42,640 nt of DNA from a virus. This document shows positions 1 through 40,793 of this stretch, one piece after another. The stretch is from the IMG/VR virus record IMGVR_UViG_3300032298_000109, positions 1 through 42,640 of that record. One strand, given 5' to 3'. Each line of letters opens with the position of its first letter. Position 1 is the stretch's first letter. The position numbers and the translations under genes are program-made. Under the pieces are notes generated by a model, which did not search any database, was not told where the DNA came from, and saw only the letters and a program-made list of their open reading frames with translations.

Positions 1-890
1 CTGGTACAGCCGCTGCTGATACAATCGCTGATGACTTCGGTCTTGGTGGTGGTATGACTACAGCTGAGTCTGAAGCTTTAGGTGATTCTTCAACTAATTC
101 TTTCGCTCAAATGGCATTCAGCATTGAAAAAGCAACAGTGACTGCAAAGACACGTGCTTTGAAAGCTGAATACACAATGGAATTAGCACAAGACTTAAAA
201 GCAGTTCATGGTCTTGACGCTGAAACAGAATTAGCGAACATCCTTTCAGCTGAAATCTTAGCTGAAATCAACCGCGAAGTTATCCGTACAATCAACGTAA
301 AAGCTAAGTTAGGTGCTCAAACAGCTAACTGCACAAACGCTGGTGTATTTAACTTGGTAACTGATGCTGATGGTCGTTGGTCAGTTGAAAAATTCAAAGG
401 TCTTTTAGTTCAAATCGATCGCGAAGCTAACAAGATTGCCAAAGATACTTGTAGAGGTAAAGGCAACTTCATCGTTTGTTCATCAGACGTTGCAACAGCT
501 TTAGCTGCTTCTGGCATGTTGGTATACAATCCAGCTATGTCAGTTGATTTAGCAGTTGACGACACTGGCAATACATTTGCTGGTGTATTAAACGGCAAGA
601 TCAAAGTGTACATCGATCCATATGCTACACAAGACTACGTAACTGTTGGTTACCGTGGTACAAACCCATATGACGCTGGTTTATTCTACGCTCCATATGT
701 ACCACTCACAATGGTTCGTGCTGTTGATCAAGGTTCTTTCCAACCTAAGATCGGTTTCAAAACACGTTATGGCATGATTGCAAACCCATTCTCAAATCCA
801 GGTACAGCACCTGTAAATGATACTGGTTTAAATCGTACTAACGTTTATTTCCGTATCTTTAAGGTAACAGGTCTTTTAGACAACGCTTAA
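1..890 (+). CDS. 23: Major capsid protein gp23, C-terminal part (5' end outside window)
   Basis: Reading frame is open from base 3 with no start inside the window, so the N-terminal half lies upstream. The protein forms the hexameric shell of the T4-like head after cleavage by the prohead protease. The stretch MTTAESEALGDSS followed by FSIEKATVTAKTRALKAEY and LAQDLKAVHGLDAETELANI is the strongly conserved gp23 core, and INREVIRTI follows at once. The C-terminus PNVYFR-like (TNVYFRIFKVTGLL) is also typical of the family. The ATG at 54 is an internal methionine, not the start. The gene is followed by a strong terminator, so it is probably the last gene of its late operon. Identity is from remembered family motifs; confidence is high. 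Confidence 0.95.
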   Translation, partial: GTAAADTIADDFGLGGGMTTAESEALGDSSTNSFAQMAFSIEKATVTAKTRALKAEYTMELAQDLKAVHGLDAETELANILSAEILAEINREVIRTINVKAKLGAQTANCTNAGVFNLVTDADGRWSVEKFKGLLVQIDREANKIAKDTCRGKGNFIVCSSDVATALAASGMLVYNPAMSVDLAVDDTGNTFAGVLNGKIKVYIDPYATQDYVTVGYRGTNPYDAGLFYAPYVPLTMVRAVDQGSFQPKIGFKTRYGMIANPFSNPGTAPVNDTGLNRTNVYFRIFKVTGLLDNA

Positions 891-7444: not shown

Positions 7445-7929
7445 TGGAATTAATTTATAAACTCATACCGTATGATGATCCGCTTTTAACTAAGCACTTA
7501 GAATATAAAGAAGTAGAAGATAAAGCAAAGTTTGCAGAGATGTTAGTCAACGCATGTAAATTCTTTAAAGGCATCGGTCTGTCAGCAAATCAAGTTGGCA
7601 TTGATAATAGGATTTTCTGTATTACCTTTAACGATTTCTCAGAAACTTTCTTTGATCCCAAAATTGTAGAGTATTCTAAAGAAGAAACTTTATTCGATGA
7701 AGGATGTCTATCTCAACCGGGAGTTTTCATTAATTTAAAACGACCTAAGACAGTTAAGATTGAATATACCAATAAAGACGGAGAACGTGTCACCACAGAA
7801 TTTAGCGGTATTACAGCGCGCATCATTCAACACGAATACGACCACATGGAAGGTACAAACTTCTTAGAAAGGGCATCTCCGCTTAAACGAGCTTTGGCAT
7901 TAAAACATGCTAAGCGGAAAAATCGCTAA
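7441..7929 (+). CDS. def: Peptide deformylase
   Basis: 162 residues, similar to bacterial deformylases. It removes the formyl group from the first methionine of new proteins. The three family motifs are intact: GIGLSANQVG (motif 1), EGCLS (motif 2, metal-binding Cys) and HEYDH near residue 131 (motif 3, two His and the catalytic Glu). Phage deformylases are known from cyanophages and are thought to support protein turnover or maturation during infection. It overlaps gp46 by 4 nt and is the last gene of the gp55 operon before a new promoter. The first of two adjacent ATG codons is used here; the second would also fit. Confidence 0.92.
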   Translation: MMELIYKLIPYDDPLLTKHLEYKEVEDKAKFAEMLVNACKFFKGIGLSANQVGIDNRIFCITFNDFSETFFDPKIVEYSKEETLFDEGCLSQPGVFINLKRPKTVKIEYTNKDGERVTTEFSGITARIIQHEYDHMEGTNFLERASPLKRALALKHAKRKNR

Positions 7930-7945
7930 TGAAATCAATGACTTG

Positions 7946-7995
7946 TAGGGCCTATGTACTGCAGGATATTTTTATGGTATAATATACCTATATTA
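7946..7995 (+). repeat. 50-bp exact promoter repeat, copy 1
   Basis: The 50 bases from TAGGGCCTATGTACTG to the terminal TATATTA are identical to 10255-10304. The repeat holds the whole promoter (-35, spacer, -10) and the GGGCCTA upstream element. The two copies stand before the VWA gene and its MoxR-like partner. Confidence 0.95.
7955..7983 (+). promoter_or_regulatory. Promoter of the VWA/metallopeptidase gene
   Basis: TGTACT (7955-7960), 17 nt, TATAAT (7978-7983) with ATGG before the -10. It is part of the exact 50-bp repeat and lies 42 nt before the start codon. Confidence 0.85.
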
Positions 7996-8025
7996 AGTAA
8001 TAAATAACATGTAAAAGGTGTCCAA

Positions 8026-22060: not shown

Positions 22061-22493
22061 ATGGGATTTACGATACCTCCATTTAGCTAAGCACGTTGCA
22101 CAGTGGTCGAAAGATCCTAACACTAAAGTTGGTGCTGTAGCAGTTGGACATATGGGTCAAATCTTGGCTCAAGGATATAATGGATTCCCTCGAGGTATCT
22201 TAGATACTCCTGATCGCCTAAACGATAGACCAACTAAATATAAGTTCGTAGTTCATGCAGAGATGAACGTAATCTATAATGCAACATACAATGGAGTATC
22301 ATTGAATGGTGCTAGATTATATGTGTATGGTTTACCAATTTGCAGTGAGTGCGCAAAAGGTATCATTCAAGTTGGAATAGAAGAAGTTATCATCTCTCAA
22401 GAATGTTTGAATCTTCAACCACACTGGGTTGAAAGTTGGAAAATATCTGCAGACATGTTTGCTGAAGCTCGCATCCTTGTAAAAGTAATATGA
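22044..22493 (+). CDS. cd: Deoxycytidylate deaminase
   Basis: 149 residues from the ATG at 22044, chosen for the GGAG 5 nt upstream; an ATG at 22029 is also in frame. The zinc and catalytic motif HAEMN (71-75) and PICSEC (C100, C103) are intact. It converts dCMP to dUMP, the substrate for the ThyX encoded at 30104. NTKVGAVAVG and GYNGFPRGILD are typical of the family. It overlaps gp42 by 17 nt, so two enzymes that compete for dCMP are made from one coupled message. Confidence 0.92.
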   Translation: MDQTHKWDLRYLHLAKHVAQWSKDPNTKVGAVAVGHMGQILAQGYNGFPRGILDTPDRLNDRPTKYKFVVHAEMNVIYNATYNGVSLNGARLYVYGLPICSECAKGIIQVGIEEVIISQECLNLQPHWVESWKISADMFAEARILVKVI

Positions 22494-22903
22494 AATCTGT
22501 AAAAGATTTTGTTGATGTTACGTCTTCAGATGAGATCATTATACTTGGTCAGTGTCCATCCACAAAGACAGAACCATTTTCTAATGGAACTTTCGCTAGA
22601 TTAAAACGTTGGTGCGATACTGTTGGACTTACAGAATGGGATTTTCATAACGTTATACCTAATAAGATAAACAGTTATGATATGAAAGACGTGGACATCT
22701 TTGCATTACACGATGCTGTGTATAATAAGAAAGTTGTAATTGCACTCGGTGGATTTGTCTCTAAGGTGTGCACTAAATATAAGATAGATCATTATAAGAT
22801 CGATCATCCATCTCCAAGGAATAGGAATCTTAATGATCCTACCTATGAAAAGCAACTTTTAAAAAATTTAAAGAAATATTTGAATGAGCATAGAAACCAC
22901 TAA
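22490..22903 (+). CDS. Uracil-DNA-glycosylase-fold protein
   Basis: 137 residues. IIILGQCPS (16-24) resembles motif A (GxxPG-like) of the UDG superfamily. NGTFARLKRWCDTVGL matches the following helix, FHNVIPNK carries an Asn on the expected strand, and KVVIALGGFVSKV then HPSPRNR (106-112) resembles the motif B loop. The length is shorter than most family 4/5 glycosylases. The usual catalytic acid near motif A is not obvious, so activity may be altered. Inside a base-modification operon it could bind, read or excise a modified cytosine or uracil. Overlaps of 4 and 20 nt link it to its neighbours. Confidence 0.6.
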   Translation: MKSVKDFVDVTSSDEIIILGQCPSTKTEPFSNGTFARLKRWCDTVGLTEWDFHNVIPNKINSYDMKDVDIFALHDAVYNKKVVIALGGFVSKVCTKYKIDHYKIDHPSPRNRNLNDPTYEKQLLKNLKKYLNEHRNH

Positions 22904-24053
22904 ATACTATGACGAATATATTCGTTATTTCAATCTAGCTTTAGATCAACAAAAAAAGTGTAACGTATCTGACGAGCCTCCTTATGGTATGCTTGCGCAC
23001 ATAGATTCAGATATGAATGATGAACTATTTCATCACGTAGAACTATATGATGTAGTAGAACGTAAGTATGCTGGATTCTCACAGATCGTCAACGATTGTT
23101 TCTATGGTTGGACAGAAGAACATCCTTATTGGAAAAAGATGGAAGCTGGTAAAATTACCAGACAACGAGAAGTAGTTGCAAAAGATTGGACTGGTAAACA
23201 TTCTGATTTTAAATTACCAGAATGGTTGTACATCTTTATCCTTCATCGTGTTTGTGGTTCAGCTATCAACTATTCTACTAAACCATCTGGTTATCATAAC
23301 ACATTACTCTTCAACTTGCATAAAGCAAAGACGATTGAAGAGATGACTACGATCGTTAATAAACATCCTAAACCATTCTATACATCAGTAGGTTACCAAT
23401 TTCCAGCATTTCCAAAACCACCAGCTGGATCCAACTATAAACGAAATGGTGATTATTACCTAACAGAATTTGCACCACGCTTAGCGCGTGATCTTGCAGA
23501 GTTCTTAGAGAGTGGAGGTAAACGAGATCTTCGAGAGATCGGAGATTACATGTTGAAATGGAACGTAGATAATGGTCTTCGTCAATATCATTTCCAATAT
23601 GCAGCAGTCGTAGCAGATATTGCCGATTGGTATCCGCAATACGTCAATAAAGAATCGCCGTTTTATTATGGAACAAATGCAGTTGAGTGTATCTCTTACT
23701 TGGCTAAACCAACAAGCAAGATGAAACCAATTCAATTCTTAGATAAAGTTATGGAGAAGATTTATGAAGATGTTAAGTCATATCCATATAATGCTGAAGA
23801 TGTATGTTGTGACTTTATCCGATGGGTAGAAAACTATGTTAGACCTGGTGCAGATTACGATCACTTAGATTTCGATAATGTCTGGTCATCATGTAAGATT
23901 AAAGACCATCCATTTGGTAGACAACAAAATATGTTGAAACTAGGATTGGTAAAATCATTTAATGGTATGAAAGCACATCCTTCAGATGACGCAGTTATTA
24001 AACAAGCAGGTTTGACAGTAGAACAATATAAAGAACTATGCAAAACGATTTAG
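22884..24053 (+). CDS. Unrecognised modification-operon protein A (389 residues)
   Basis: No firm family. Visible features: YGMLAHIDSDMNDELFHHVEL near the N-terminus; a helical block ILHRVCGSAINYSTKPSGYHN; HKAKTIEEMTTIV; and a C-terminal FQYAAVVADIADWYPQYVN followed by FYYGTNAVECISYL. The CGSAINY...GYHN block recalls helical, glycosylase-derived proteins of phage hypermodification systems (the alpha-glutamyl/putrescinyl-thymine pyrophosphorylase clades), but this is a weak impression. The C-terminal pattern, an aromatic stretch, YP, V, S, then GT, recurs in the next gene, so the two may be distant paralogues. Overlaps of 20 and 16 nt show coupled translation. Confidence 0.55.
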   Translation: MSIETTKYYDEYIRYFNLALDQQKKCNVSDEPPYGMLAHIDSDMNDELFHHVELYDVVERKYAGFSQIVNDCFYGWTEEHPYWKKMEAGKITRQREVVAKDWTGKHSDFKLPEWLYIFILHRVCGSAINYSTKPSGYHNTLLFNLHKAKTIEEMTTIVNKHPKPFYTSVGYQFPAFPKPPAGSNYKRNGDYYLTEFAPRLARDLAEFLESGGKRDLREIGDYMLKWNVDNGLRQYHFQYAAVVADIADWYPQYVNKESPFYYGTNAVECISYLAKPTSKMKPIQFLDKVMEKIYEDVKSYPYNAEDVCCDFIRWVENYVRPGADYDHLDFDNVWSSCKIKDHPFGRQQNMLKLGLVKSFNGMKAHPSDDAVIKQAGLTVEQYKELCKTI

Positions 24054-25021
24054 CACAATTCATAGATGAGTCATATAATAATATTACATACGAAGGCACG
24101 TGTGATGTAGTATTAAAGAATGGTAAACCAACAGAAAGTTGGATGAAGGATTGGACACAAGAACAAAGGTTCGATAAGTTCTTTGAGTGGTGTAAAGCTT
24201 TCGATAAACGTGAAGATAAATTGTTGAAGGAAGATTATCAGATCTTCTCTCATCGTCTCCATTGGCATGAACATCCATTTGTAGATGTCATGAAACCAAT
24301 CACTGATAATAAGTTACGTCTATTCTATACACTTGTATTCTCATTTAGTAATGAACATTGGGGTACACTCATGTCATTGATGAATGATGGAATCCCTGTA
24401 ACACGTGAAAGATTTAAGACGCAACGACATGCGCGCAATGATCTATTCCAAATCTACTATCCTAAAGGCACTAACGTAAAAGATTGGTTGATTGATGGAC
24501 CAATGAAAGCAGCCGAAGATATTCATACTATCTTAGATGAACCCGCAAAGATGGGTCGACCATTTACGATGATGGAATTTGCTAAACGATTAGAAGCATA
24601 TTTCAAAGAACATCAGGGTTTTAGAAGTCCATTATATCCATGTAAAAATACAGCGCGTTATATGGCATTCGCTTATCCACATTTAGTAGATCCAGAATCT
24701 GTGTTGTTTGGTGGTACAGGTCATTTTGATGGCATGCAACAAATATTTGGTGGTACGAATCTAAACGGTAAAGTTAAGTATGAGATTGGTCCTAATGGAG
24801 AGTTTACAGCCACAAATAAGTATGGTATAATATGGCTAGAGCAGATGAATTTATTAGCTAATGATACTCGTAATCCAATGACTGTACAGAAGATGTTGAA
24901 TGTAGAGGATAAAACTTGTTTCTTCTATAAACACATAGCTATTAGTCACGGAGTAAAATCACCAACAAAACGTATACCATATACATGGATTTTTCCAAAA
25001 GAATTTAGCCTGAAAAAATGA
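24038..25021 (+). CDS. Unrecognised modification-operon protein B (327 residues)
   Basis: No firm family. The middle has HRLHWHEHPFVDV and LRLFYTLVFSFSNEHWGTLM. The C-terminal half has YPCKNTARYMAFAYPHLVD and VLFGGTGHFDGMQQIFGG, which parallels the AVVADIADWYP...YYGTNA region of the gene before it. CKNTARYMA followed by a GTG turn would suit a nucleotide- or DNA-binding helical domain, but this is speculative. An internal promoter lies in its last 220 bases. ATGA overlap with the next gene. Confidence 0.55.
   Translation: MQNDLAQFIDESYNNITYEGTCDVVLKNGKPTESWMKDWTQEQRFDKFFEWCKAFDKREDKLLKEDYQIFSHRLHWHEHPFVDVMKPITDNKLRLFYTLVFSFSNEHWGTLMSLMNDGIPVTRERFKTQRHARNDLFQIYYPKGTNVKDWLIDGPMKAAEDIHTILDEPAKMGRPFTMMEFAKRLEAYFKEHQGFRSPLYPCKNTARYMAFAYPHLVDPESVLFGGTGHFDGMQQIFGGTNLNGKVKYEIGPNGEFTATNKYGIIWLEQMNLLANDTRNPMTVQKMLNVEDKTCFFYKHIAISHGVKSPTKRIPYTWIFPKEFSLKK
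24803..24831 (+). promoter_or_regulatory. Intragenic promoter for the SGNH/PLP end of the operon
   Basis: TTTACA (24803-24808), 17 nt, TATAAT (24826-24831) preceded by TATGG, inside the coding region of protein B. The architecture equals that of the intergenic promoters. It could raise expression of the last two genes of the operon. Confidence 0.6.
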
Positions 25022-26001
25022 ACGTCTTAACAAACCCGATTAGTAATGTACCTCAACTAAAGAACTCTCACGTCCTTGGTTGGTCACAAGTATGGGCAGA
25101 TCAATTAGATGCTGCTATCGATCATAAGTGTTCTCCAAATATTGCTAATGCTTCAATCGTTTATATTGAACACGGTGTAAACTTTGGTGGTACACTTAAC
25201 TTATTTGGTGGCGCAACTAAAGAGATCTATGATAGAATCAATAGAGTTGCAGCACATCCTAATGTAGTATCATTAGACTTCGACATGCCAGATTGGGGAG
25301 ACCAACTTAAGAAACGAATTGGTGCACCGACTACATATACAGGTATCACTGAACAATGGTGTGATGCTTTGTCTTTGCGCCTATCAAAAGTACAATCTGT
25401 CAAACAACAAGACTTATTACAAGTATCATCTAAGTTCGACGGTATTTCTGTTGGTGATTCTCATACTCCAGCATTCTCGCGTTCTACTGATATTGTACTA
25501 AGAGAAAATGGTAAGACACTATACGGCACTCTTAAACGCGGATTAATCACAGAGTTTAGAGGATTGAAACCATTTGGTAATGTAACATTTTGTTATGGAT
25601 CGATTGATGTTCGTCATCATATCCTTCGTCATGAGAACTTTAACTTAGATGATATGTTAGATGAGTATGTTAGACAAGCTGTCACCATACAAAAAGAACA
25701 TAGATGTAATATCTCATTCACAACTCCAGTTCCAGTTGAATACGAAGATCGTAGATTACCAAAGACTGGTTACTATAAAGGCACTCCATTCTTTGGATCA
25801 AGACATGCTCGTTTAGGCCTTACATACCGAATTATCGAAGGACTAAATAAAAGAAAGGTGAATGTTATTATGCCACCTGAAGAGTGGTACAAGATGGACG
25901 GTGAGAAGTATGCAAAGACTTATATGGAAAATAGTTCAAGCGTCCATATCTCTCCACAATATTATAGAAGAAAAGATTGGGGACAAACTTGTTTAGCATA
26001 A
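25018..26001 (+). CDS. SGNH/GDSL-hydrolase-like protein
   Basis: 327 residues with two parts. The N-terminal 130 residues (GWSQVWADQLDAAIDHKC, then SIVYIEHGVNFGGTLNLFGG) are unrecognised. From about 140, GISVGDSHTPAFSR (nucleophile Ser148 in GDSH), CYGSIDVRHHIL (193-203, block III-like) and NSSSVHISP (about 305-313, a candidate catalytic His) follow the SGNH order. Such folds act as esterases, acyltransferases or, in phages and glycan loci, unassigned transferases. It sits between protein B and the PLP enzyme and could add or remove an acyl-type group on a modified base. The catalytic Asp before the His is not evident. Confidence 0.55.
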   Translation: MNVLTNPISNVPQLKNSHVLGWSQVWADQLDAAIDHKCSPNIANASIVYIEHGVNFGGTLNLFGGATKEIYDRINRVAAHPNVVSLDFDMPDWGDQLKKRIGAPTTYTGITEQWCDALSLRLSKVQSVKQQDLLQVSSKFDGISVGDSHTPAFSRSTDIVLRENGKTLYGTLKRGLITEFRGLKPFGNVTFCYGSIDVRHHILRHENFNLDDMLDEYVRQAVTIQKEHRCNISFTTPVPVEYEDRRLPKTGYYKGTPFFGSRHARLGLTYRIIEGLNKRKVNVIMPPEEWYKMDGEKYAKTYMENSSSVHISPQYYRRKDWGQTCLA

Positions 26002-26951
26002 CAGAAGATACAGGTAACAAAGATATTCCTATGGGAATGGATCGCAGCGATGCGAAGAAATATTATGAAGAATTGTGGGGAACATTTACATCTAGAATAT
26101 CGGATCCAATAGTAGAATCATATGGAGATAAGTTTATACTGAGAGCTGATCTTGCACCAGGAGGATTGAAAGCTTTTGGTGGAGAAAGAGTGATAGCACA
26201 ATCGAAGTATAACATATTGACATATTGCGCACCTCGACAAGGTCATGCTATGGATGCTATCTCAATGTTAGCAGAGATGTATAATAAAAAAGTAGTATTC
26301 TTTTGTCCATCATCTAAAGAAGTATCAGATCATCAAGGTGCATTGTTTGCCTATCCTCATGTTGATATGAGATTTGTACGTATTGCTGCAATGCCAGTTT
26401 TAAATCAATATGCTAAGAAATGGGCAAAAGAAAACAATGCACAATATTTGCCATTAGGTTTAAAAGATATGCCAATGGTTACAGCAGGTCTTGTTAATAT
26501 GGCTAATAAAATAACCAAACAATTAGGGAAAGAACCTACACAAATTTGGTGTGCAGTATCAACAGGTACGATGACGCGAGCATTACAAATTGGATGGCCG
26601 ACAGCAGAAGCACATGGTATTGCAGTGGCACGTAATATACATAAAGGTGAAATTGGTGATGCAAAGGTTATAACAGCAACTATACCTTTCCTTAAAGCAT
26701 GCATTACAAAAAATCCCATGCCATTTCCATCTACAGCAGCATATGATGCGAAAGCTTGGGATTCTTTCGTTGAGCATGGAAAAGCAGGATCTATCTTCAT
26801 CAACGTTGGTGCTGATGAACATATCAATAGAAACTTATCGAAAGTAGATATATCTAACATCAATAGTTACAGAGAATGGCATGATATGGAAGATTTAAAA
26901 CGTAATAGAGCATTTAAAAACAGTGTACAAATAAGTGCAAATATGGTATAA
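25977..26951 (+). CDS. PLP-dependent enzyme, fold type II (TrpB/ACC-deaminase-like)
   Basis: 324 residues from a TTG at 25977; an ATG at 26031 is an alternative that removes 18 residues. GGLKAFGGERVIAQ could hold the PLP lysine. CAPRQGHAMDAISMLAEMYNK with VVFFCPSS matches the gNh.qA..A......vvfvP strand-helix of the fold, and CAVSTGTMTRAL is the Gly-rich phosphate-binding loop. These enzymes do beta-replacement, elimination or deamination on amino acids. In thymidine-hypermodified phages PLP enzymes act on amino-acid-decorated bases; a similar step on hydroxymethylcytosine is my inference. Last gene of the operon. The next promoter lies inside its end. Confidence 0.7.
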   Translation: MGTNLFSITEDTGNKDIPMGMDRSDAKKYYEELWGTFTSRISDPIVESYGDKFILRADLAPGGLKAFGGERVIAQSKYNILTYCAPRQGHAMDAISMLAEMYNKKVVFFCPSSKEVSDHQGALFAYPHVDMRFVRIAAMPVLNQYAKKWAKENNAQYLPLGLKDMPMVTAGLVNMANKITKQLGKEPTQIWCAVSTGTMTRALQIGWPTAEAHGIAVARNIHKGEIGDAKVITATIPFLKACITKNPMPFPSTAAYDAKAWDSFVEHGKAGSIFINVGADEHINRNLSKVDISNINSYREWHDMEDLKRNRAFKNSVQISANMV

Positions 26952-32403: not shown

Positions 32404-32430
32404 GTAGTGTCATAATGTAGTACTTTGAAA

Positions 32431-32455
32431 GGGGGCTTCATGCCCCCTCTTTTTT
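32431..32455 (+). terminator. Terminator before the late region
   Basis: GGGGGC / GCCCCC (32431-32436 and 32442-32447) with a 5-nt loop, then TCTTTTTT. Strong intrinsic terminator that separates early small genes from the late promoter just downstream. Confidence 0.93.
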
Positions 32456-32456
32456 A

Positions 32457-32464
32457 TATAAATA
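32457..32464 (+). promoter_or_regulatory. T4-type late promoter
   Basis: TATAAATA directly after a terminator, the same arrangement as at 929-977. It precedes a block of putative virion genes starting at 32518. Confidence 0.85.
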
Positions 32465-32517
32465 GATCTTGTATATGTCAGTTGCCATTTAGAGCAACAG
32501 TAACATGGAGCAAGGTT

Positions 32518-33486
32518 GTGGCACAAAGTCAATATAAGAAACTTACACCCAGTGAACTATTAAAACCTGGGCGAGAAGGCAGAGGACCAACATTAATCAA
32601 GAAGATTGAAGAAGGCCAAGATTTTGTTTTATTTTCCGGCGAAGTTGTGAAGTTTAAAAAAGATGCTGCTGTTCTTGGAGCGATAGCTCAAGGTTTAAAA
32701 CAAGGCAGCAATGATTTATTAAATGCAATTCGTTTGAAGAGCACAACAAATAAAGAATACAAGATATCAGATCTTGCAAAGACTGCAGAATTCGGCGGTA
32801 AAGGTGCTGGATCTGGCACAGTAGCTGAGTCAATAGCGTTAACAGATATCCAAGCTAAGTTGCAAGCACTCTTAAATAAAGAAAACAAACCGTTTATTAA
32901 AGTTGACATAAATGGTAAAGTAGTTCAGTGTTCTAACTTTCAGAAAACTGACGGAACACCTAAGAGCGACTTTCATATATTAGATCCTAAAGGTAAAGAG
33001 GTTGCATGGATCTCCCATAAAAAAGGTACACGTGCAAAAGATTTCCAACAGTACGGAGGCATGATCGAGTTGTCTCCATCAGAAGAGCTAGACGTATTTG
33101 TAAAAGATGTGAAGAATATATTATCGACTGATGGTTCTCCTGGTGTTTTACCTATGAAGACTGCATATTATAGAAAAGTTAAAGATAAACGTACACGTAT
33201 GAAAACTCTTTTTGGTAAAGATTTTAAAACTTCAGGTCCTGACTCCAGACAAAACATTGATGTGTTGTATCAAGGAGTATTAGATTTTAAAAAGGGTACC
33301 GGTGGAATTTACACCATCACTAGCAGTCATACAGTATTTCATGGTAAAGAACCAACGGGTGATTACGAACCATATTATTATATTAGACCAGAACAAGCTA
33401 AGACACAATTCGGAGTTAGAGGCGGTAGATTTTTTATCGTAGCTAAATTAACAGCAATTTCAAATAAGAATGCCAAAGAGATATGA
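32518..33486 (+). CDS. Putative late protein with restriction-endonuclease-like motifs
   Basis: 322 residues from the GTG at 32518, which has GGAG 7 nt upstream. A longer frame from 32425 would begin before the late promoter and inside the terminator, so it is rejected. GTPKSDFHILDPKGKEVAWIS followed by HKKG resembles the (P)K-x-D...(E/S)xK layout of PD-(D/E)xK-like nucleases of the KaDi...iSlK type, followed by AKDFQQYGGM. Ser stands where Glu is usual, so activity is uncertain. It heads a late operon and overlaps the next gene by 4 nt. Confidence 0.5.
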   Translation: MAQSQYKKLTPSELLKPGREGRGPTLIKKIEEGQDFVLFSGEVVKFKKDAAVLGAIAQGLKQGSNDLLNAIRLKSTTNKEYKISDLAKTAEFGGKGAGSGTVAESIALTDIQAKLQALLNKENKPFIKVDINGKVVQCSNFQKTDGTPKSDFHILDPKGKEVAWISHKKGTRAKDFQQYGGMIELSPSEELDVFVKDVKNILSTDGSPGVLPMKTAYYRKVKDKRTRMKTLFGKDFKTSGPDSRQNIDVLYQGVLDFKKGTGGIYTITSSHTVFHGKEPTGDYEPYYYIRPEQAKTQFGVRGGRFFIVAKLTAISNKNAKEI

Positions 33487-33866
33487 TAACTTTCAAAGAA
33501 TACTTACAAGAAGAACACGGCGCAGGAGAATGGGGAACAACCAAACTTACAAAGCGTTATAAGAAAGATACTCCTGGACAAGACGATAAAGAAGATATCA
33601 AAGAATATGCTATTGATGCTAAAGGACACAAGTCATCTACTGGCGGATTAACACAAAAAGGCGTTGATGCTTATAAGAGAGAAAATCCTGGCAGTAAACT
33701 TCAAACAGCCGTGACTACTAAACCATCTAAATTAAAACCAGGAAGTAAAGCTGCTAATCGTCGTAAATCATTTTGTGCTCGTATGAGCGGTGTTGATGGT
33801 CCTATGAAAGACGAAAAAGGTAGACCAACTAGAAAAGCTTTAGCTTTAAGAAAATGGAATTGTTAA
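33483..33866 (+). CDS. Late protein with capsid-targeting-like N-terminus (DUF6321-like)
   Basis: 127 residues. The start MITFKEYLQEE resembles the T4 internal-protein capsid-targeting sequence (MKTYQEFI-x-E). The C-terminus KAANRRKSFCARMSGVDGPM followed by KDEKGRPTRKALALRKWNC is a conserved basic block seen in many aquatic phages. Two Cys and many Lys/Arg suggest DNA contact. Packaging into the head is inferred from the N-terminal motif. ATGA and TAATG overlaps join it to its neighbours. Confidence 0.6.
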   Translation: MITFKEYLQEEHGAGEWGTTKLTKRYKKDTPGQDDKEDIKEYAIDAKGHKSSTGGLTQKGVDAYKRENPGSKLQTAVTTKPSKLKPGSKAANRRKSFCARMSGVDGPMKDEKGRPTRKALALRKWNC

Positions 33867-35002
33867 TGATTACTTTTAAAGATTTCTTATTTGAGGCTAC
33901 ATCAGTAGATGATGAGATGCTTGGTCATCTAACACATACTAAAGATTTACCTCATGAAGATTCACGATATGGCAATGCAGCTATAAATCTAATACACCAG
34001 TTTCATAAGCTTCGTAAAGGCGAGAAGAGCGAAGTGTCTGCTTCATTGAAAACCGATGGTGGTTCATCTGTGCACGTAGTACACGATGCTAAGGGAGTAG
34101 GTGTATCAGATAAACATAGAATTGCAAGAGGAGTTATCGCAAGAACTCCTGAAGAAGTAGATCAGCATTTTGGGCATCAACCACAATATGCACATGCATT
34201 AAAACATCTATTGAAACACGGTCATGAGATCGTAAGTAAAGGACACCACATTCAGGGTGATTTGTTACATACACCAAAAGATGAAACTACCAAACAAAGT
34301 AAAGATACTACTACTACAACCCCAAACAGAATCACATATAAAGCAAAGACAAAAGCTCCTATTGGATTGGCTATACATACTGAAGTAACTAAAGGTGTTG
34401 CTCATGCACCATCTAAAGGTGCTGTGAAGAAAAGTAGTAACGTATTTGTTCCAGCATATGCATTTAATCATAAAGAACATCCATACACAGCTGAAGATCA
34501 AGCACACGTAGAACATCATTTGACTGCTGCTAAAAAATTAATGGACCAGCATTCAACTCATCACTTAACACCAGAACATACTAATAATTTTACTATATAC
34601 TTGAATAGAACTACACGAAGAGGTGAAGCACCTTCAATTGCTGGATATAAAAAGCATTTGGCTGGCGAAGGAGAAAAGGCAGCTGGTAAATTAAAGACCG
34701 CTGTTGGTAAAGAAAAGGCTATGTCGAAGTTTAATGCATTATCTAGTCATGTCGATGCACATAAAGAACATTTCCAACGTTCATTAGATATCCGTCACCA
34801 CTTGGGTCAAGCTACTGAACACGTATTAAAAGGTGTAACTCATCCTGATATGGAAACATCTATCGATGGTAAGAAATCTCCAGGAGAAGGTATAGTATTA
34901 CAGAAAAAACACAATGGAAAATTAAGACCAGTTTCGAAGCTTGTTCCTGTAAAAGTTTCTAATGCTATCTTAAACAATCCAAGATTTGCTAAGGACAAAT
35001 AA
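33866..35002 (+). CDS. Late protein with ligase/nucleotidyltransferase-like motifs and capsid-targeting-like N-terminus
   Basis: 378 residues from the ATG in the TAATG overlap; the frame opens 12 nt earlier. MITFKDFLFEA is a capsid-targeting-like start with a candidate cleavage after FE. SASLKTDGGSS (KxDG at 62-65), HHIQGDLLHTP (about 128-138) and GEGIVLQKK with SKLVPVK (about 348-370) resemble motifs I, III, IV and V of ATP-dependent ligases and RNA-capping nucleotidyltransferases. The middle is rich in His and Lys. An injected nucleotidyltransferase would be unusual. The fold is inferred from motif order. Confidence 0.5.
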   Translation: MITFKDFLFEATSVDDEMLGHLTHTKDLPHEDSRYGNAAINLIHQFHKLRKGEKSEVSASLKTDGGSSVHVVHDAKGVGVSDKHRIARGVIARTPEEVDQHFGHQPQYAHALKHLLKHGHEIVSKGHHIQGDLLHTPKDETTKQSKDTTTTTPNRITYKAKTKAPIGLAIHTEVTKGVAHAPSKGAVKKSSNVFVPAYAFNHKEHPYTAEDQAHVEHHLTAAKKLMDQHSTHHLTPEHTNNFTIYLNRTTRRGEAPSIAGYKKHLAGEGEKAAGKLKTAVGKEKAMSKFNALSSHVDAHKEHFQRSLDIRHHLGQATEHVLKGVTHPDMETSIDGKKSPGEGIVLQKKHNGKLRPVSKLVPVKVSNAILNNPRFAKDK

Positions 35003-35622
35003 TGCAAACCTTTTCAAACTTCCTTAAGGAAGAAGCTGAAGCCAAACATGCAACTCTTGCTTACGGTCGCATGAATCCTCCAACCTCTGGTCATCTTAAA
35101 GTAATCAATAAGGTGCAAGAAGTTGCTAAGAAACATGGAGGTGAGCATCACATGATTGTATCACATTCTGAAGATTCTAAAAAGAATCCATTATCTGGTG
35201 AACAGAAGGTTAAACATCTTAAACGTTATGCACCTGGTGCAAACATCCGTTCATCATCAAAAGAAAATCCCACATTGTTCTCACATGCTGCTGAGCTACA
35301 CAAGAAAGGTGTAACACACCTACATGTAGTTGCTGGCTCAGATCGTGTACCAGAATATAAGAAGAAGTTTAAAGAATTAAATGGTAAACCAAATAAAGAA
35401 GGTCATGTACCATTCCATTTTAAAAAGATCACTGTGCATTCTGCAGGTACTAGAGATCCTGATGCTGAAGGCGATACGGGTATGTCAGGTACAAAAATGC
35501 GAAGTCATGCTGCGAATAAAGACTTCAAGTCTTTCCGTAAAGGTGTACCAGCACATGTCTCAGATGAACATACACACGAATTAATGAATGATGTACGCAA
35601 GGGTATGGGTCATAACGATTAA
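35002..35622 (+). CDS. Cytidylyltransferase-fold nucleotidyltransferase with capsid-targeting-like N-terminus
   Basis: 206 residues. After MQTFSNFLKEEAEA, the sequence LAYGRMNPPTSGHL (19-32) holds the TxGH form of the HxGH nucleotide-binding motif. THLHVVAGSDRVPEY is the central strand. GMSGTKMRSHA (about 158-168) is the ISSTxxR-type phosphate-binding motif. The catalytic set looks complete, as in NMN/phosphopantetheine adenylyltransferase-like enzymes; the substrate cannot be told. It shares one base with the gene before it (TAATG). Confidence 0.75.
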   Translation: MQTFSNFLKEEAEAKHATLAYGRMNPPTSGHLKVINKVQEVAKKHGGEHHMIVSHSEDSKKNPLSGEQKVKHLKRYAPGANIRSSSKENPTLFSHAAELHKKGVTHLHVVAGSDRVPEYKKKFKELNGKPNKEGHVPFHFKKITVHSAGTRDPDAEGDTGMSGTKMRSHAANKDFKSFRKGVPAHVSDEHTHELMNDVRKGMGHND

Positions 35623-35636
35623 CTGAAAGCAATATC

Positions 35637-35909
35637 ATGTCTACAAAACTCCAGCGCAAAAAGAAACAGCGCACTGGCTGGTATGAATTAGAGTATGAAG
35701 AATTAGTTAAGCCTAAGAAAGGTCCGACAAAAAGGACTGATACTAGGAAGTACTATTCTACTCAAGTCACATATGTAAGCATGAGAGAAGAAGAGTATTT
35801 AAACTTAGCAGATAGGATAATTGGTCTTTCCCCAGAATCACATAGGATGACTATATTGACATCAGAAGGTCAACAAGAATTTGATCAAGATGATGATGAA
35901 ATAGATTAG
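35637..35909 (+). CDS. Small unrecognised protein (90 residues)
   Basis: MSTKLQRKKKQRTGWYELEY at the start, then a basic stretch (KPKKGPTKRTDTRKYY), a strand-rich middle (YSTQVTYVSMREEEYL) and an acidic tail (EFDQDDDEID). The charge split between halves is marked. Last gene before a late promoter. No family recognised. Confidence 0.6.
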   Translation: MSTKLQRKKKQRTGWYELEYEELVKPKKGPTKRTDTRKYYSTQVTYVSMREEEYLNLADRIIGLSPESHRMTILTSEGQQEFDQDDDEID

Positions 35910-35925
35910 TGTTGTAGCCTAAACT

Positions 35926-36051
35926 ATTATAAATAAGAGTGAACCAGTTATTAAATTTGATGGAATTGAAATAGAAGCTGTTAACTGGGACCGCTTCGTA
36001 AGATGTTCAATTCGATTATTATCACACGTGGTTAATGGGAAAATATGTTAA
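35926..36051 (+). CDS. Possible short ORF without an ATG/GTG/TTG start
   Basis: Open frame after a TAA, with ATT (35926) or ATA (35929) as the only early candidate starts. It encodes EPVIKFDGIEIEAVNWDRF then VRCSIRLLSHVVNGKIC, protein-like in composition and running 7 nt into the next gene. The late promoter at 35928-35935 overlaps its 5' end, so the message would start inside it. It could be a remnant, an ATT-initiated peptide, or chance. Low confidence. Confidence 0.25.
   Translation: MINKSEPVIKFDGIEIEAVNWDRFVRCSIRLLSHVVNGKIC
35928..35935 (+). promoter_or_regulatory. T4-type late promoter
   Basis: TATAAATA in a 135-nt gap, about 110 nt before the gene at 36045. Third intergenic copy of the late box in the window. 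Confidence 0.75.
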
Positions 36052-36491
36052 AGTTTAAAGAATATTCGCAGGAATTCGACCTACAACTTGAGTCTGTACA
36101 ACTGACAGATGAAGAAGTATCTGAACTCAATGAAGTTTTAGATACGTCTGCTCGAATCAAACGAAGACAACAATTCATTCGTCGTGGTGCACGCGTTGCC
36201 ATGGCTCGTAAAGTACAGCAACGTAGATTTGCTAGTCCTGAACGATTAAAACTTAGATCTAGACAGAGGGCAAAGAACCTCTTAATAAGACGCCTTTATC
36301 AAGGCCGTAGCAGATCTGAAATCCCCCTAGCCCAAAGAAAACAAGTGGATATTAAATTAGGCCGCATGAAGAATGCTGTCACTCGTATATCTCAAAAATT
36401 AATTCGTCGTGTCAGACAAGAAGACATCGCGAGAAAAACAAAAAATAGAAATTTACCAAAATTTGATAGTAAGAGCCAAGCAGGATTTTAA
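36045..36491 (+). CDS. Arg-rich late protein with capsid-targeting-like N-terminus
   Basis: 148 residues. MLKFKEYSQEFDLQLE is a variant of the shared N-terminal motif. The rest is very rich in Arg/Lys: RIKRRQQFIRRGARVAMARK, RQRAKNLLIRRLYQGRSRSE, RISQKLIRRVRQEDIARK. Predicted helical and DNA-binding, suited to an internal head or core protein. Similar Arg-rich proteins are conserved in aquatic T4-like phages. Role inferred from charge, motif and late context. Confidence 0.6.
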   Translation: MLKFKEYSQEFDLQLESVQLTDEEVSELNEVLDTSARIKRRQQFIRRGARVAMARKVQQRRFASPERLKLRSRQRAKNLLIRRLYQGRSRSEIPLAQRKQVDIKLGRMKNAVTRISQKLIRRVRQEDIARKTKNRNLPKFDSKSQAGF

Positions 36492-36493
36492 TT

Positions 36494-37438
36494 ATGAAAC
36501 AATTTAAGGAATACCTTAAAGAAACCAGTGGTAAAGTTGTATTGACATTTGGTCATTTCAACCCGCCAAACATTGAGAATGAAAAGTTAATTAATAAAGT
36601 ACATGAGTCTGCTGAAGGTGGACCATATAGGATTTATACATCGCAAGAATGTGACCAACACTCTCCATTAGAGTACAACACTAAAGTCAAATTTATGCGT
36701 AAGATATTCCCTCGTCATGCACGTTCTATAATTAGTGACTCAAAGATAGTAGATTTATATGATGCATTAGATTCTTTATACGAACAAGGTTATACTAAAG
36801 TCGATTTAGTAATGCCTAATATTCCTAAAGAATTGAAAGAAGAAGTTAACAATTATAATAGATCTCGATATAATTTTAAGTCAATAGAGTTTATCTCTGT
36901 TAATACACATGATATTGAACCAAAAATAATTGAAGCTGCTAAAAATAATAACTTTGAATTGTTTGTTAAAAGTTTACCTTCGACATTAAAAGAAGGACAT
37001 AAGTTATATAATGCTCTTCGTTCAGCACTTGGTTTAAAAGAAACATTTAACTTTAGACAACATATTCAACTTCCTACATTATCCAAAGAACGCGAAGCTT
37101 ATGTAAACGGAGAGTTGTTTAAAGTAGGTGATGTAGTTGAAGTTAAAGAGACTAAAGAGATTGGTCAAATTCAAAGACTCGGATCAAATTATGTAATCAT
37201 TGAAACATATGAAGGCGCAAAACAACGTAAATGGTTGCGTGATGTTATCAAAGTTGAAGAAGCAGTTATCAATCAGATGCTCGAAAAGATGGGTAATCCT
37301 TGTTGGACTGGTTACACAATGGTTGGCACTAAAGAAAAAGGTGGTAAAACAGTTCCAAACTGTGTACCAGTAAATAAGAAAAACAAATCAAAAATTAAGT
37401 CATTCAAAGAAGACTTATCAACATTTAATGGGAAATAA
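36494..37438 (+). CDS. Degenerate nucleotidyltransferase-like late protein with capsid-targeting-like N-terminus
   Basis: 314 residues in three parts. First, MKQFKEYLKE, the shared motif. Second, VVLTFGHFNPPNIENEKLI aligns with the GRMNPPTSGH loop of the 35002 gene but has lost the T/HxGH residues, so this domain is probably inactive. Third, a small SH3/KOW-like domain (GELFKVGDVVEVKETKEIGQ then IQRLGSNYVIIET), ending in MGNPCWTGYTMVGTKEKGGK and a VPNCVP tail, a Cys-containing module common in aquatic phage proteins. Likely a packaged or structural paralogue of the active enzyme. Confidence 0.6.
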   Translation: MKQFKEYLKETSGKVVLTFGHFNPPNIENEKLINKVHESAEGGPYRIYTSQECDQHSPLEYNTKVKFMRKIFPRHARSIISDSKIVDLYDALDSLYEQGYTKVDLVMPNIPKELKEEVNNYNRSRYNFKSIEFISVNTHDIEPKIIEAAKNNNFELFVKSLPSTLKEGHKLYNALRSALGLKETFNFRQHIQLPTLSKEREAYVNGELFKVGDVVEVKETKEIGQIQRLGSNYVIIETYEGAKQRKWLRDVIKVEEAVINQMLEKMGNPCWTGYTMVGTKEKGGKTVPNCVPVNKKNKSKIKSFKEDLSTFNGK

Positions 37439-37440
37439 AA

Positions 37441-37704
37441 ATGTCAGACAGATTAATTCAAGTACTTGCACAAGAAGAAACTCTAGCTGCTAATACAGCA
37501 ACTAATGTATCACTAGCCCACGTGGTAAAGATACATGTTGGTGGTACAGAAAGAAAGTTTACAGTTAAAGATGCTAGCGGAAATACAATAGGATCTACCA
37601 CGACTCACGCTAATCAGACGCTTTATATTCGTAAAAAAGCTACTGATACAGTAGAAGCTAATGGCGCAGGTTGCTTAGCAACATCAATAGCATTCGGAGA
37701 TTAA
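37441..37704 (+). CDS. Small beta-rich late protein (87 residues)
   Basis: MSDRLIQVLAQEETLAANTA, then VVKIHVGGTERKFTVKDASG and TLYIRKKATDTVEANGAG. Strand-rich, with the size and Gly/Thr content of small head-decoration or fibre-associated proteins, but without a recognised family. It lies 2 nt after the previous stop and 1 nt before the next gene, inside the late block. Confidence 0.55.
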   Translation: MSDRLIQVLAQEETLAANTATNVSLAHVVKIHVGGTERKFTVKDASGNTIGSTTTHANQTLYIRKKATDTVEANGAGCLATSIAFGD

Positions 37705-37705
37705 T

Positions 37706-39403
37706 ATGAAAAGTCTTAAGGATTTTTTAGAAGCTCGAATGATAGCAACAGGAGATTTCAAAATCTCTGCATCTGGTCGTAAAGTACGTCGTCTAATTAA
37801 AGTTGGTGATGATAGTTATAATAAAGCCGATGATCTTGATAAAGACGGTGATGTTGATAAAGACGATAGACGCTTAGCTAAAGAAGAAGTCGAACAGATC
37901 GAAGAAGCTACAGTCAAATCTGCTAGCTATTCTTGGGGTACAATGAAGACTGTACATCATGGTAAAGACTTCTCAATCCCTCTTCATCCAGAACACCACA
38001 AACCAATCGCAGCATTAAAGCACGGCGAATCTCATAGTTTTAAAGATGAGACTGGTAATAAGTGGAAAGCTACACGTGATAATGATACAGTTCATTTCCA
38101 CGGTGGTTCATATGGCACACAAAAGACTTCAGTTAAACATGACGCTATGAAAGAGTCTGTTGAGATTACAGAAGCTGAAGAACATTTGGTTCATGTATCC
38201 GATGGTTCTAAGTATGATGAAGTCCCACACCCAAAAGATATTGAACATGTTAAGACTGGTGCAATGCATCATGGTGGTAAATGGGATGGTCATTCAGATA
38301 AAGGCGCATTCTTTAAGTTTAAATCAAAAGAAGATGCACAACACTTTGTAAGTCATGTTAACAAATGCCCACACCGTTCATGTTCAGCAGATCTACACGA
38401 GTCAACAGAACAAGTTAATGAAGCATCTGATAAACAAGATTCACGTCTATTACAGCTTGCTCGCTTAGGTTTATTAGATAAAAATGATGTAGCAATATTT
38501 AGAAATGCTATGCAAACATTTAAAGCTGATAAACAATTATCGATTAAACAACGTAATATGTTATTGAGTGTTTATAACGACTTAGTGAATATGGTAACAG
38601 GCGATGATGCTATGTTTGCCCGCGCTAAGTTAGATGTACAAAAAGAAGATACAGATTTAGAAGAAGGTAAAGTATATGATCCATTCACAAAGAAAATGGT
38701 TCCTACTAAACCAATCAAAGTTCAAGCTGGCGGTGGTGCAACTAGAAATGGTGTTCCTATAGAAACAGGTCCTTCAAAGTATAAAGAAAAATTAAACAAA
38801 GAAGAAGTACAAATTGATGAGTTATCTAAAGGATTAGTTGCTAGATACGCAAATAAAGTAGCAAAAACTACACAAGCTAATTATGATAAATCTAAAGATA
38901 AATTTCAATTCTCGTCAGGTAGACAAGATGGAATGAAAAATGCAGTTAAGAGATTAACTAAAGAAGAAGTACAGATCGATGAAATTTCTAAAGATACATT
39001 AGCTTCATATATTCCTAAGGCTGCTAAAGATGCACGTATTCATGGTCAAATTGCCACCGACTTTGAAAATAGAGGTAAGACAGCTAGAAAACCAGGCTCA
39101 AAAGATAGTTGGAATAGATTATCTATGAAGTATAAAGAGAAAGCTTGGAAGCGTGATGATGGTATATCTAAAGCGGTTAATAAGTTAACTAAAGAAGAAA
39201 CACAATCTGAAGGTTACTATAAAGATATCGATACTAACGCAAAAGAAGATGAGCGTTTAGGTTCATGGAAAAAAGAAACACCATGGCGTAAAATAAAACC
39301 TGGTTCTGATACAGTTACAGACAAATCAGGTGCAACACATACTCCAATGTCTAAAGTTCGTCATCTAGCTAGATTGGCGTTAAAGAAAACAACTAGTAAG
39401 TAA
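37706..39403 (+). CDS. Large modular late protein, possible prohead-protease polyprotein
   Basis: 565 residues. It starts MKSLKDFLEARM (capsid-targeting-like with a candidate LEA cleavage). An EF-hand-like loop, LDKDGDVDKDDRR, lies near residue 45. Several modules then follow, separated by acidic linkers that end in T4 gp21-like cleavage sites: QIEEA, EITEA, QVNEA, DLEEG. Two later linkers read KEEVQIDELSK and KEEVQIDEISK, each opening a similar helical module (LVARYANKVAK; LASYIPKAAKD). Contains a Cys/His-rich patch (CPHRSCSADLH). Cleavage and injection are inferred from motif spacing. Confidence 0.55.
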   Translation: MKSLKDFLEARMIATGDFKISASGRKVRRLIKVGDDSYNKADDLDKDGDVDKDDRRLAKEEVEQIEEATVKSASYSWGTMKTVHHGKDFSIPLHPEHHKPIAALKHGESHSFKDETGNKWKATRDNDTVHFHGGSYGTQKTSVKHDAMKESVEITEAEEHLVHVSDGSKYDEVPHPKDIEHVKTGAMHHGGKWDGHSDKGAFFKFKSKEDAQHFVSHVNKCPHRSCSADLHESTEQVNEASDKQDSRLLQLARLGLLDKNDVAIFRNAMQTFKADKQLSIKQRNMLLSVYNDLVNMVTGDDAMFARAKLDVQKEDTDLEEGKVYDPFTKKMVPTKPIKVQAGGGATRNGVPIETGPSKYKEKLNKEEVQIDELSKGLVARYANKVAKTTQANYDKSKDKFQFSSGRQDGMKNAVKRLTKEEVQIDEISKDTLASYIPKAAKDARIHGQIATDFENRGKTARKPGSKDSWNRLSMKYKEKAWKRDDGISKAVNKLTKEETQSEGYYKDIDTNAKEDERLGSWKKETPWRKIKPGSDTVTDKSGATHTPMSKVRHLARLALKKTTSK

Positions 39404-39776: not shown

Positions 39777-40793
39777 ATGAATTGGGGAATTTTCAAAACA
39801 GATTCTGTATCTGAAGCATATAAAAAGATGAAAGCTGAAGAATCATCTTGTGATAAAGATATGAAAAAAGAAGAACTTAAAGGCAATCAACATAAGCTTG
39901 ATAAAAACAAGAATGGTAAAGTCGATGCGCACGATTTTAAGTTGTTGCGTAAAGAAGAAACAGTTGAAGAAGGCATTGATAAATCTGAAAATGAATCAAC
40001 TGAACAGTTAGCTGAAATGGAATTTGATAAGAACGGTGTATATAGACATCAAGCAAAACCTGGTGTTTACGGTGGTTCTGAAAAAGAAAAGCATGTAGTA
40101 GACACATTAGCTGGTCCTAAAAAATCTGATTTAGAAAAGATTGCAGCTAAAAAGAAAATGAAGAAAGAAGACTTCCAACTCTTCAATGAAAGAGAACTAG
40201 ATATTCTTATCAATGAAGTGTTATCTAAAGATGAACCAGCTGGTAAATGGATTAGTGACTTTGTACAATCAGATGCACCACAGTTTGCAGGTAAGTCAAC
40301 AGAAAAACGTAAGCAGATGGCTTTAGCTGCTTATTACTCAGCACAAAAAAATGAATCAACAGAATACGATTCATTTTTAAGTGAAGAAGGCAACCCTAAA
40401 CCGTTCATCGGTCAAGGTGCTAAAGAAATTAAACACACAAATATGAAAGATAAACAAGATGATCAAGACGTTATGGAACCTCATTCAGAGGGCGAGCAAA
40501 GCTTTGTTGACGACCACTCCGTCCTCGTCACCGACGAGCCAAACAAAGACGGAACCCCCAATGGAGCCGACAAAACCAAACGAGCCGATGAACCAAAAGG
40601 AAAAGGTCCAGCAACCTACGACGCCAAAGAAAAGCTCGGAAAACAAGGCGCAGTCAAAGAAGCCGTCTTCAAGACAGCCGCAGGTGAAGAAATCGACACA
40701 ACCCCCCAAACCAAGAAAGACGGCGACGGTAAAAAGAAGTTCGGCGAATTAAAAAAGAAAGTAGCTGCAGCAGATAGCGCTAGCAATTACTAG
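39777..40793 (+). CDS. Acidic modular late protein with an EF-hand-like loop
   Basis: 338 residues. N-terminal MNWGIFKTDSVSEAYKKM, an EF-hand-like loop LDKNKNGKVDAHDF (about 41-54), a linker ETVEEG, then FQLFNERELDILINEVLSK and SDAPQFAGKSTEKRKQMALA followed by AYYSAQK, a block seen in other aquatic phage late proteins. The last 110 residues are low-complexity D, K, P, T and G. Bases 40480-40735, coding this tail, are clearly richer in G+C and C-ending codons than all flanking genes. AAAGGAAAA precedes the start. Scaffold or internal protein is the best guess. Confidence 0.55.
   Translation: MNWGIFKTDSVSEAYKKMKAEESSCDKDMKKEELKGNQHKLDKNKNGKVDAHDFKLLRKEETVEEGIDKSENESTEQLAEMEFDKNGVYRHQAKPGVYGGSEKEKHVVDTLAGPKKSDLEKIAAKKKMKKEDFQLFNERELDILINEVLSKDEPAGKWISDFVQSDAPQFAGKSTEKRKQMALAAYYSAQKNESTEYDSFLSEEGNPKPFIGQGAKEIKHTNMKDKQDDQDVMEPHSEGEQSFVDDHSVLVTDEPNKDGTPNGADKTKRADEPKGKGPATYDAKEKLGKQGAVKEAVFKTAAGEEIDTTPQTKKDGDGKKKFGELKKKVAAADSASNY

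Follow-up and report, generated by a model that had tools for sequence, protein, structure and literature searches.

Six of the eight genes located between positions 33483 and 39403 of a T4-like phage sequence encode proteins that begin with a common ten-residue tag. It is very likely that the six N-termini are capsid targeting sequences (CTS) of the T4 type, from which we infer that the tagged proteins are docked, cut, retained and injected by this phage. The data argue, with about the same high confidence, for packaging of the tagged proteins in the head as prohead cargo. The cargo consists of five unrelated families: DUF6321, DUF6267, an intact and a degenerate cytidylyltransferase-like protein, an Arg-rich protein and a long modular protein. 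We propose that residues 1–10, with hydrophobic residues at positions 4, 7 and 8 and Glu10, dock each protein onto a gp22-type scaffold core of the prohead. During prohead maturation a gp21-type protease would cut after the Glu, and the peptide would leave. The mature cargo would remain inside the head, surrounded by the DNA, and could enter the cell together with it; judged by analogy with T4, such injection appears reasonably probable.

The analysed sequence, referred to here as the window, comprises 42.6 kb (42,640 nucleotides) and represents a fragment of a T4-like marine phage with a bacterial host. The record start truncates the gene of the major capsid protein gp23, of which only the C-terminal part is encoded (54–890, plus strand). 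It is followed by uvsW-, gp46/47-, polymerase-, uvsX- and gp41-type helicase-like genes and then by the tagged cluster. The genes for gp20, gp21 and gp22 and the N-terminus of gp23 fall beyond the limits of the window, and a search of the window for the portal protein (PF07230) gave no match, as expected for a fragment. The nearest named relatives are mostly Kyanoviridae and include Pelagibacter phage HTVC008M, Methylophilales phage Melnitz, phage C48C1 and Synechococcus phages. A related cluster is present in these phages and in most of them sits between gp41 and gp61/nrd. The T4 late-promoter box TATAAATA occurs five times in the window, which is not above chance, so the label "late" for the cluster genes is drawn from context only. 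Two of the copies are found close to where p0 and p5 begin.

All eight cluster genes are encoded on the plus strand. The preliminary description had reported a shared N-terminus in six of them, and all six peptides were indeed found at real gene starts, the genes at 35637 and 37441 being untagged. The gene p1 (33483–33866, 127 amino acids) encodes the tag MITFKEYLQE and a DUF6321 domain. The frame of p2 (33866–35002, 378 amino acids) opens at ATG 33854 (MELLMITFK...); the tag-bearing start is ATG 33866, which is kept in relatives, and the tag MITFKDFLFE/A (the slash follows the Glu) precedes a DUF6267 domain of the predicted nucleic-acid ligase superfamily. The product of p3 (35002–35622, 206 amino acids) carries the tag MQTFSNFLKE and a cytidylyl/adenylyltransferase-like domain. 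It is followed by p4 (35637–35909, 90 amino acids), which is untagged and has no family match, and by p5 (36045–36491, 148 amino acids), an Arg-rich protein with the tag MLKFKEYSQE. The gene p6 (36494–37438, 314 amino acids) encodes the tag MKQFKEYLKE, a degenerate cytidylyltransferase paralogue and C-terminal modules including CWxGY...VPNC. The product of p7 (37441–37704, 87 amino acids) is untagged and weakly similar to the virion protein S-SCSM1_39 (a single pairwise E-value of 3e-4). The last gene, p8 (37706–39403), encodes a modular protein of 565 amino acids with the tag MKSLKDFLE/A, an EF-hand-like motif and LxE sites. Upstream of the cluster lies p0 (32425–33486, plus strand, start codon uncertain), whose untagged product resembles type II restriction enzymes (PADLOC REase_II, 2.9e-11).

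The pattern used to recognize the tag was fixed from T4 proteins alone, namely IPII and IPIII (MKTYQEFIAE), gp24 (MAKINELLRE) and Alt (MELITELFDE). As a regular expression it requires a hydrophobic residue at each of positions 4, 7 and 8, of which position 8 may instead be Ser or Thr, together with Glu at either position 9 or position 10. It matches 6 of the 57 genes of the window, exactly the six tagged ones. Applied to internal Met residues it matches none of the 272 within the window, and 25 (0.7%) of the 3443 pooled over the genome sets examined. The binomial probability of finding six tagged genes among eight is about 4e-12, a value that overstates independence, as the genes at 35002 and 36494 are paralogues; merging of p3 and p6 leaves five independent tagged families. 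The similarity to the T4 sequences put forward in the preliminary description holds residue by residue, at the position of the Glu as well as at hydrophobic positions 4, 7 and 8. Position 4 is occupied by F, F, F, F, F and L and position 7 by Y, F, F, Y, Y and F in p1, p2, p3, p5, p6 and p8, respectively. A hydrophobic residue at position 8 and Glu10 are each present in five of the six tags, the exceptions being p5 (Ser8) and p8 (Glu9), and a strict pattern requiring both matches four of the six. The window genes at 1569 and 24038 match looser patterns only; both are rejected by the T4-derived pattern and were treated as chance matches. In HTVC008M the pattern matches none of the 92 genes examined, and only loose tags are seen there. 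The tag codons differ synonymously and the pN/pS ratio of the tag (0.19) is close to that of the bodies (0.20), which shows that the similarity is maintained at the protein level and that the tag, like the bodies, is under purifying selection.

The p2 product belongs to DUF6267, a Pfam family of unknown function which does not appear in the literature searched (partial coverage). Across 46 sequences of the family, K62-x-D64-G65, Q130, D132 and E341-G342-x-V344 are invariant, and V356 within a KLV near residue 355 is nearly so. In the covalent nucleotidyltransferase superfamily, KxDG, QGD, EGxV and KLV resemble motifs I, III, IV and V, respectively. For p2, AlphaFold2 gave a model with a pLDDT of 90.8, whose low-confidence part is mainly residues 1–12, which are disordered and lie ahead of the confident fold. 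In structure comparison with VIA-align, all 50 rows listed are nucleic-acid ligases (best Z 8.4 over 183 residues, rmsd 3.8). The hits obtained with Foldseek are also ligases, with a best E-value of 0.05, and no meaningful match was returned when the DUF6267 alignment was compared with the sequences in the PDB. Since a Z of about 8 taken alone is middling and the Foldseek E-values are weak, the assignment is based on fold and motifs together, by which p2 and DUF6267 are probable members of the nucleic-acid ligase superfamily.

The genes p3 and p6 are paralogues. The product of p3 contains TSGH and SGTKMR and thus conforms to both catalytic motifs of the family, (H/T)xGH and SxTKxR. In p6 and its close orthologues neither motif is present and the relation is limited to a homologous fold family. 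The loss of both motifs implies that p6 is probably a non-catalytic cytidylyltransferase paralogue. The presence of nucleotidyltransferases in the set, as proposed in the preliminary description, thus applies to p3, whereas p6 is degenerate; the ligase-like DUF6267 protein p2 has to be added. The Arg-rich p5 probably binds DNA. A relation of p5 to T4 gp68, which is also basic and belongs to the prohead core, was considered and rejected (BLAST E-value 0.17, hhalign probability about 1%).

The long protein p8 is probably a cargo polyprotein. Its LxE sites include those at residues 67, 156, 239, 320, 372 and 426, and a QSE is located at 502. Its modules join at such further LxE sites, so that cutting into several internal proteins is probable. 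Strong sites of the [LIV]xE[AGS] type number 5 against 1.3 expected (p 0.007), a modest excess. The mean distance between local-homology boundaries and LxE sites is shorter than in every shifted version of the protein, and the fraction of boundaries within 10 residues of a site is less clear (p 0.06). Alternatively, the LxE sites could be acidic interdomain linkers that are left uncut, p8 being packaged whole. The Glu-rich composition of p8 favours this, acidic linkers being common, as do the modest site excess, the mixed outcome of the boundary test and the poor predicted model (mean pLDDT 46). Against it, one orthologue (L013) lacks the module 157–239 and carries another module in place of the one from 320 to 426, the flanking sequences being almost identical, and genes that are separately tagged elsewhere are found fused through a DLTE/A junction. 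The latter is the case in phage DLP6, where an Arg-rich domain of the p5 type is fused behind a cytidylyltransferase via DLTE/ALNA. Similarly, a free gene of C48C1 consists of the tag MITFKKYLEEK and a module which in another relative (L023) makes up the C-terminal region of a protein with a cytidylyltransferase. Both fusions lend support to the view that free tagged genes and polyprotein modules may be equivalent. On balance, cutting of p8 by the prohead protease into several internal proteins is slightly favoured, and packaging of an uncut p8 is somewhat less probable, though a serious candidate. No match to p8 was obtained by tblastn in the phage collection. Downstream of the cluster, p9 (39777–40793, plus strand) encodes an untagged protein with an EF-hand-like motif and a few LxE sites, which possibly falls in the same class as p8.

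Packaging of a set of proteins, as anticipated in the preliminary description, is strongly supported by relatives. Published mass-spectrometric analyses detected the cytidylyltransferase in purified virions from S-SM1 (T4-GC190; PMC3037559), S-CREM2 (gp154; PMC10665884), S-SCSM1 (S-SCSM1_91; PMC9602691) and S-SZBM1 (S-SZBM1_140; PMC9146016). The last three proteins are tagged: the N-terminus of S-CREM2 gp154 is MKNFSSFLTEADEK with the tag MKNFSSFLTE/A, that of S-SZBM1_140 is MRFRQFIIEAVAA with the tag MRFRQFIIE/A, and that of S-SCSM1_91 is MKSFLQFLKEAAES with the tag MKSFLQFLKE/A. The passages covered of these three virion papers make no mention of the tag. At this locus of S-SCSM1, each of the genes 89 to 93 carries an annotation as a virion protein. 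The DUF6321 domain of p1 is also present in the virion-detected proteins S-CREM2 gp137 and S-SCSM1_29, and S-SZBM1_192 combines this domain with a tag (MKTFKQYITEAKN). The S-CREM2 and S-SCSM1 virions were CsCl preparations, for which the authors warn of possible carry-over (PMC10665884, PMC9602691). These observations bear on whether the tagged proteins could be scaffold or core components only, degraded or expelled as T4 gp22, gp67 and gp68 mostly are, and without a role in the next host. The three T4 core proteins likewise have LxE sites and enter the prohead, and p5 is basic, as is gp68. The retention of orthologues in mature virions speaks against such a fate, as do the conserved enzyme folds and catalytic residues of the cargo and the lack of a detectable relation between p5 and gp68. 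A purely structural role is therefore unlikely.

Removal of the tag would require a prohead protease. A protease of the gp21 type (PF03420) is encoded in all seven related contigs of at least 165 kb, all of which carry this type of cargo, and also in the named phages compared. The five related records without a PF03420 match are all shorter, four of them below 50 kb. The apparent gp23 maturation sites of related genomes, assigned by motif, are FLAE/AP, ILTE/AA, LLTE/AP, FLGE/IA and YITE/TA, the T4 site being FLTE/AE. The ends of the tags resemble these sites and are of the L-x-E/A type. Cleavage of the tags after the Glu by gp21 is likely on this evidence. The residue following the Glu is not always A, G or S; E, T and F also occur, which implies that cutting may be inefficient for some of the tagged proteins.

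The conservation of individual tag positions is evident from the DUF6267 family. In T4, amber-suppressor work on IPIII indicated that ten residues are enough, positions 4 and 7 serving targeting and positions 8 and 10 processing (PMC9026906). A profile was built from 71 N-termini of DUF6267 homologues, with start codons picked without the use of any motif. A hydrophobic residue is found at position 4 in 82% (mostly Phe), at position 7 in 86% (Phe or Tyr) and at position 8 in 89% (Leu) of the sequences, and Glu is found at position 10 in 73%, most of the exceptions being one-residue shifts. Positions 3, 5, 6 and 9 are variable. The conserved positions 4, 7, 8 and 10 of this motif-free profile are those of T4 targeting and processing, and this is the strongest single result of the analysis. 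The profile also bears on the idea that the tag is some other head- or tail-docking peptide, for example for binding to the portal or the tail, which gp21 leaves uncut. Two of the six window tags do deviate at position 8 or 10. The conservation of precisely these positions, which in T4 serve processing rather than targeting, and the match of the tag ends to the gp23 sites of related genomes render such a peptide improbable, even slightly more so than a scaffold-only role.

The tag behaves as a separable module. Related contigs yielded 95 complete DUF6267 genes, of which 82 encode the tag directly before the domain and 13 lack it, from which the separability follows; several of the tagless genes begin right at the domain. 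In the cytidylyltransferase alignment, F4 and E10 are kept in the window, S-CREM2, syn9 and S-SCSM1 despite the highly variable length of the linker after the tag. The tag core is present in 254 of 1877 non-redundant genes of related loci and on 52 body clusters, a minority of which are false (e.g. uvsX). Real tagged bodies in relatives include an adenylate kinase (MKTFRDFIFE/K..., Pfam ADK 1e-38), HAD-like proteins and a nucleotidyltransferase that by eye resembles the virion-detected S-CREM2 gp156. Nuclease-looking tagged proteins are located near DUF6267 in some relatives. The cytidylyltransferase domain also occurs in E. coli phage 121Q and Pseudomonas phage PA5oct, in different gene neighbourhoods; a cursory look at the N-termini of these two proteins identified no tag. 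Descent of the shared N-termini from gene duplication instead of a targeting signal accords with the paralogy of p3 and p6, yet is already contradicted because the DUF6321, DUF6267, Arg-rich and p8 bodies come from unrelated, non-homologous families, many more unrelated bodies are tagged in relatives and the tag is sometimes absent within one family, which makes it highly improbable.

With the six N-termini read as T4-type CTS, a broader suggestion can be made tentatively: marine T4-like phages might inject a premade kit for processing nucleic-acid ends, partly as a protease-cut polyprotein, with free genes and modules as interchangeable forms of cargo. If this is true, the kit would comprise the ligase-like DUF6267 protein, the nucleotidyltransferase and the Arg-rich DNA binder, and in relatives also adenylate kinase, a HAD-like phosphatase and possible nucleases. 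Repair or counter-defence would then begin before phage gene expression. How the many enzymes and "hypothetical" proteins of cyanophage virions enter the head has lacked an explanation, and authors have even considered carry-over. A tag of ten residues, recognizable in the sequence, predicts packaged proteins and the positions of cuts across one of the most abundant groups of ocean viruses. DUF6267 gains a probable function within the ligase superfamily, and the question of what such phages inject becomes a testable list.

The kind of tag is known from T4. New, as far as found, is a cargo that is rich in enzymes, encoded in a cluster, spread among marine T4-like phages and modular in form; in the literature searched, which was covered in part, no paper was found linking capsid targeting sequences to cyanophage cargo. 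Like T4 IPI–IPIII, Alt and gp24, the proteins described here combine a ten-residue tag bearing hydrophobic residues at 4, 7 and 8 and Glu10 with unrelated bodies, and gp21 is encoded in relatives. In contrast to T4, the cargo is larger and more enzymatic (ligase-like and nucleotidyltransferase proteins here, adenylate kinase in relatives), its genes form a single cluster that follows the gp41-type helicase, and one of the proteins has the appearance of a multi-module polyprotein. The head and ejection proteins of phiKZ and SPN3US also have removable N-terminal propeptides that end in x-x-E and are cut by the prohead protease. These propeptides often exceed 100 residues, whereas the tags described here, as in T4, comprise about 10. 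DUF6267 shares an adenylation-domain-like fold and KxDG, QGD, EGxV and KLV with RNA and DNA ligases such as Naegleria RNA ligase, archaeal DNA ligases and T4 Rnl1 and Rnl2. It shows no detectable sequence similarity to them and differs by a helical insertion of about 110 residues ahead of motif IV, and its activity is a predicted one. Further close counterparts are the cytidylyltransferase/NMNAT-like virion proteins of Kyanoviridae (S-SM1 T4-GC190, S-CREM2 gp154, S-SZBM1_140 and S-SCSM1_91), whose domain is orthologous. The tag is present in the three that were read, the gene neighbourhood is similar in most, and the proteins were detected in virions by mass spectrometry. Compared with them, the window encodes two copies, one of which is degenerate, and lacks the long linker.

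The product of p6 (36494-37438), the second cytidylyltransferase-like protein of the cluster, lacks both the HxGH and the SxTKxR motifs, which are also gone from all its close orthologues. Since both motifs have been lost, yet purifying selection still acts on p6 beside an intact paralogue, p6 is probably a pseudoenzyme. Its C-terminus carries a small module, CWxGYxxxGxKxxxGxxVPNC (37285-37380), which also occurs in the related contigs L023 (position 8031), L053 (9011) and L050 (10841). This module is found in three settings: almost alone after a tag, at the p6 end, and within proteins of Synechococcus phage virions, among them S-SCSM1_29 and S-SZBM1_139. EF-hand-like DxDxDG motifs (DLDKDGDVDKDD; KLDKNKNGKVDAHD) are present in both modular proteins, p8 (37706-39403) and p9 (39777-40793), and are followed by acidic linkers in each.

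The gene p0 (32425-33486), located directly upstream of the tagged cluster, encodes a restriction-endonuclease-like protein (PADLOC REase_II, 2.9e-11). The TATAAATA box at 32457 lies within its annotated N-terminus, the p0 start codon being uncertain. Some relatives have tagged proteins, nuclease-like by eye, close to DUF6267. The gene run 22490-26951 encodes a uracil-DNA-glycosylase-like protein (PF03167), a protein weakly matching a PLP-enzyme, and three large proteins with no Pfam match; this run is possibly a DNA base-modification cluster.

In the cultured phage DLP6, AAY80_068 (722 aa; 5851-8019 of locus L171) joins a cytidylyltransferase, an Arg-rich domain and additional sequence in which LxE sites are numerous.
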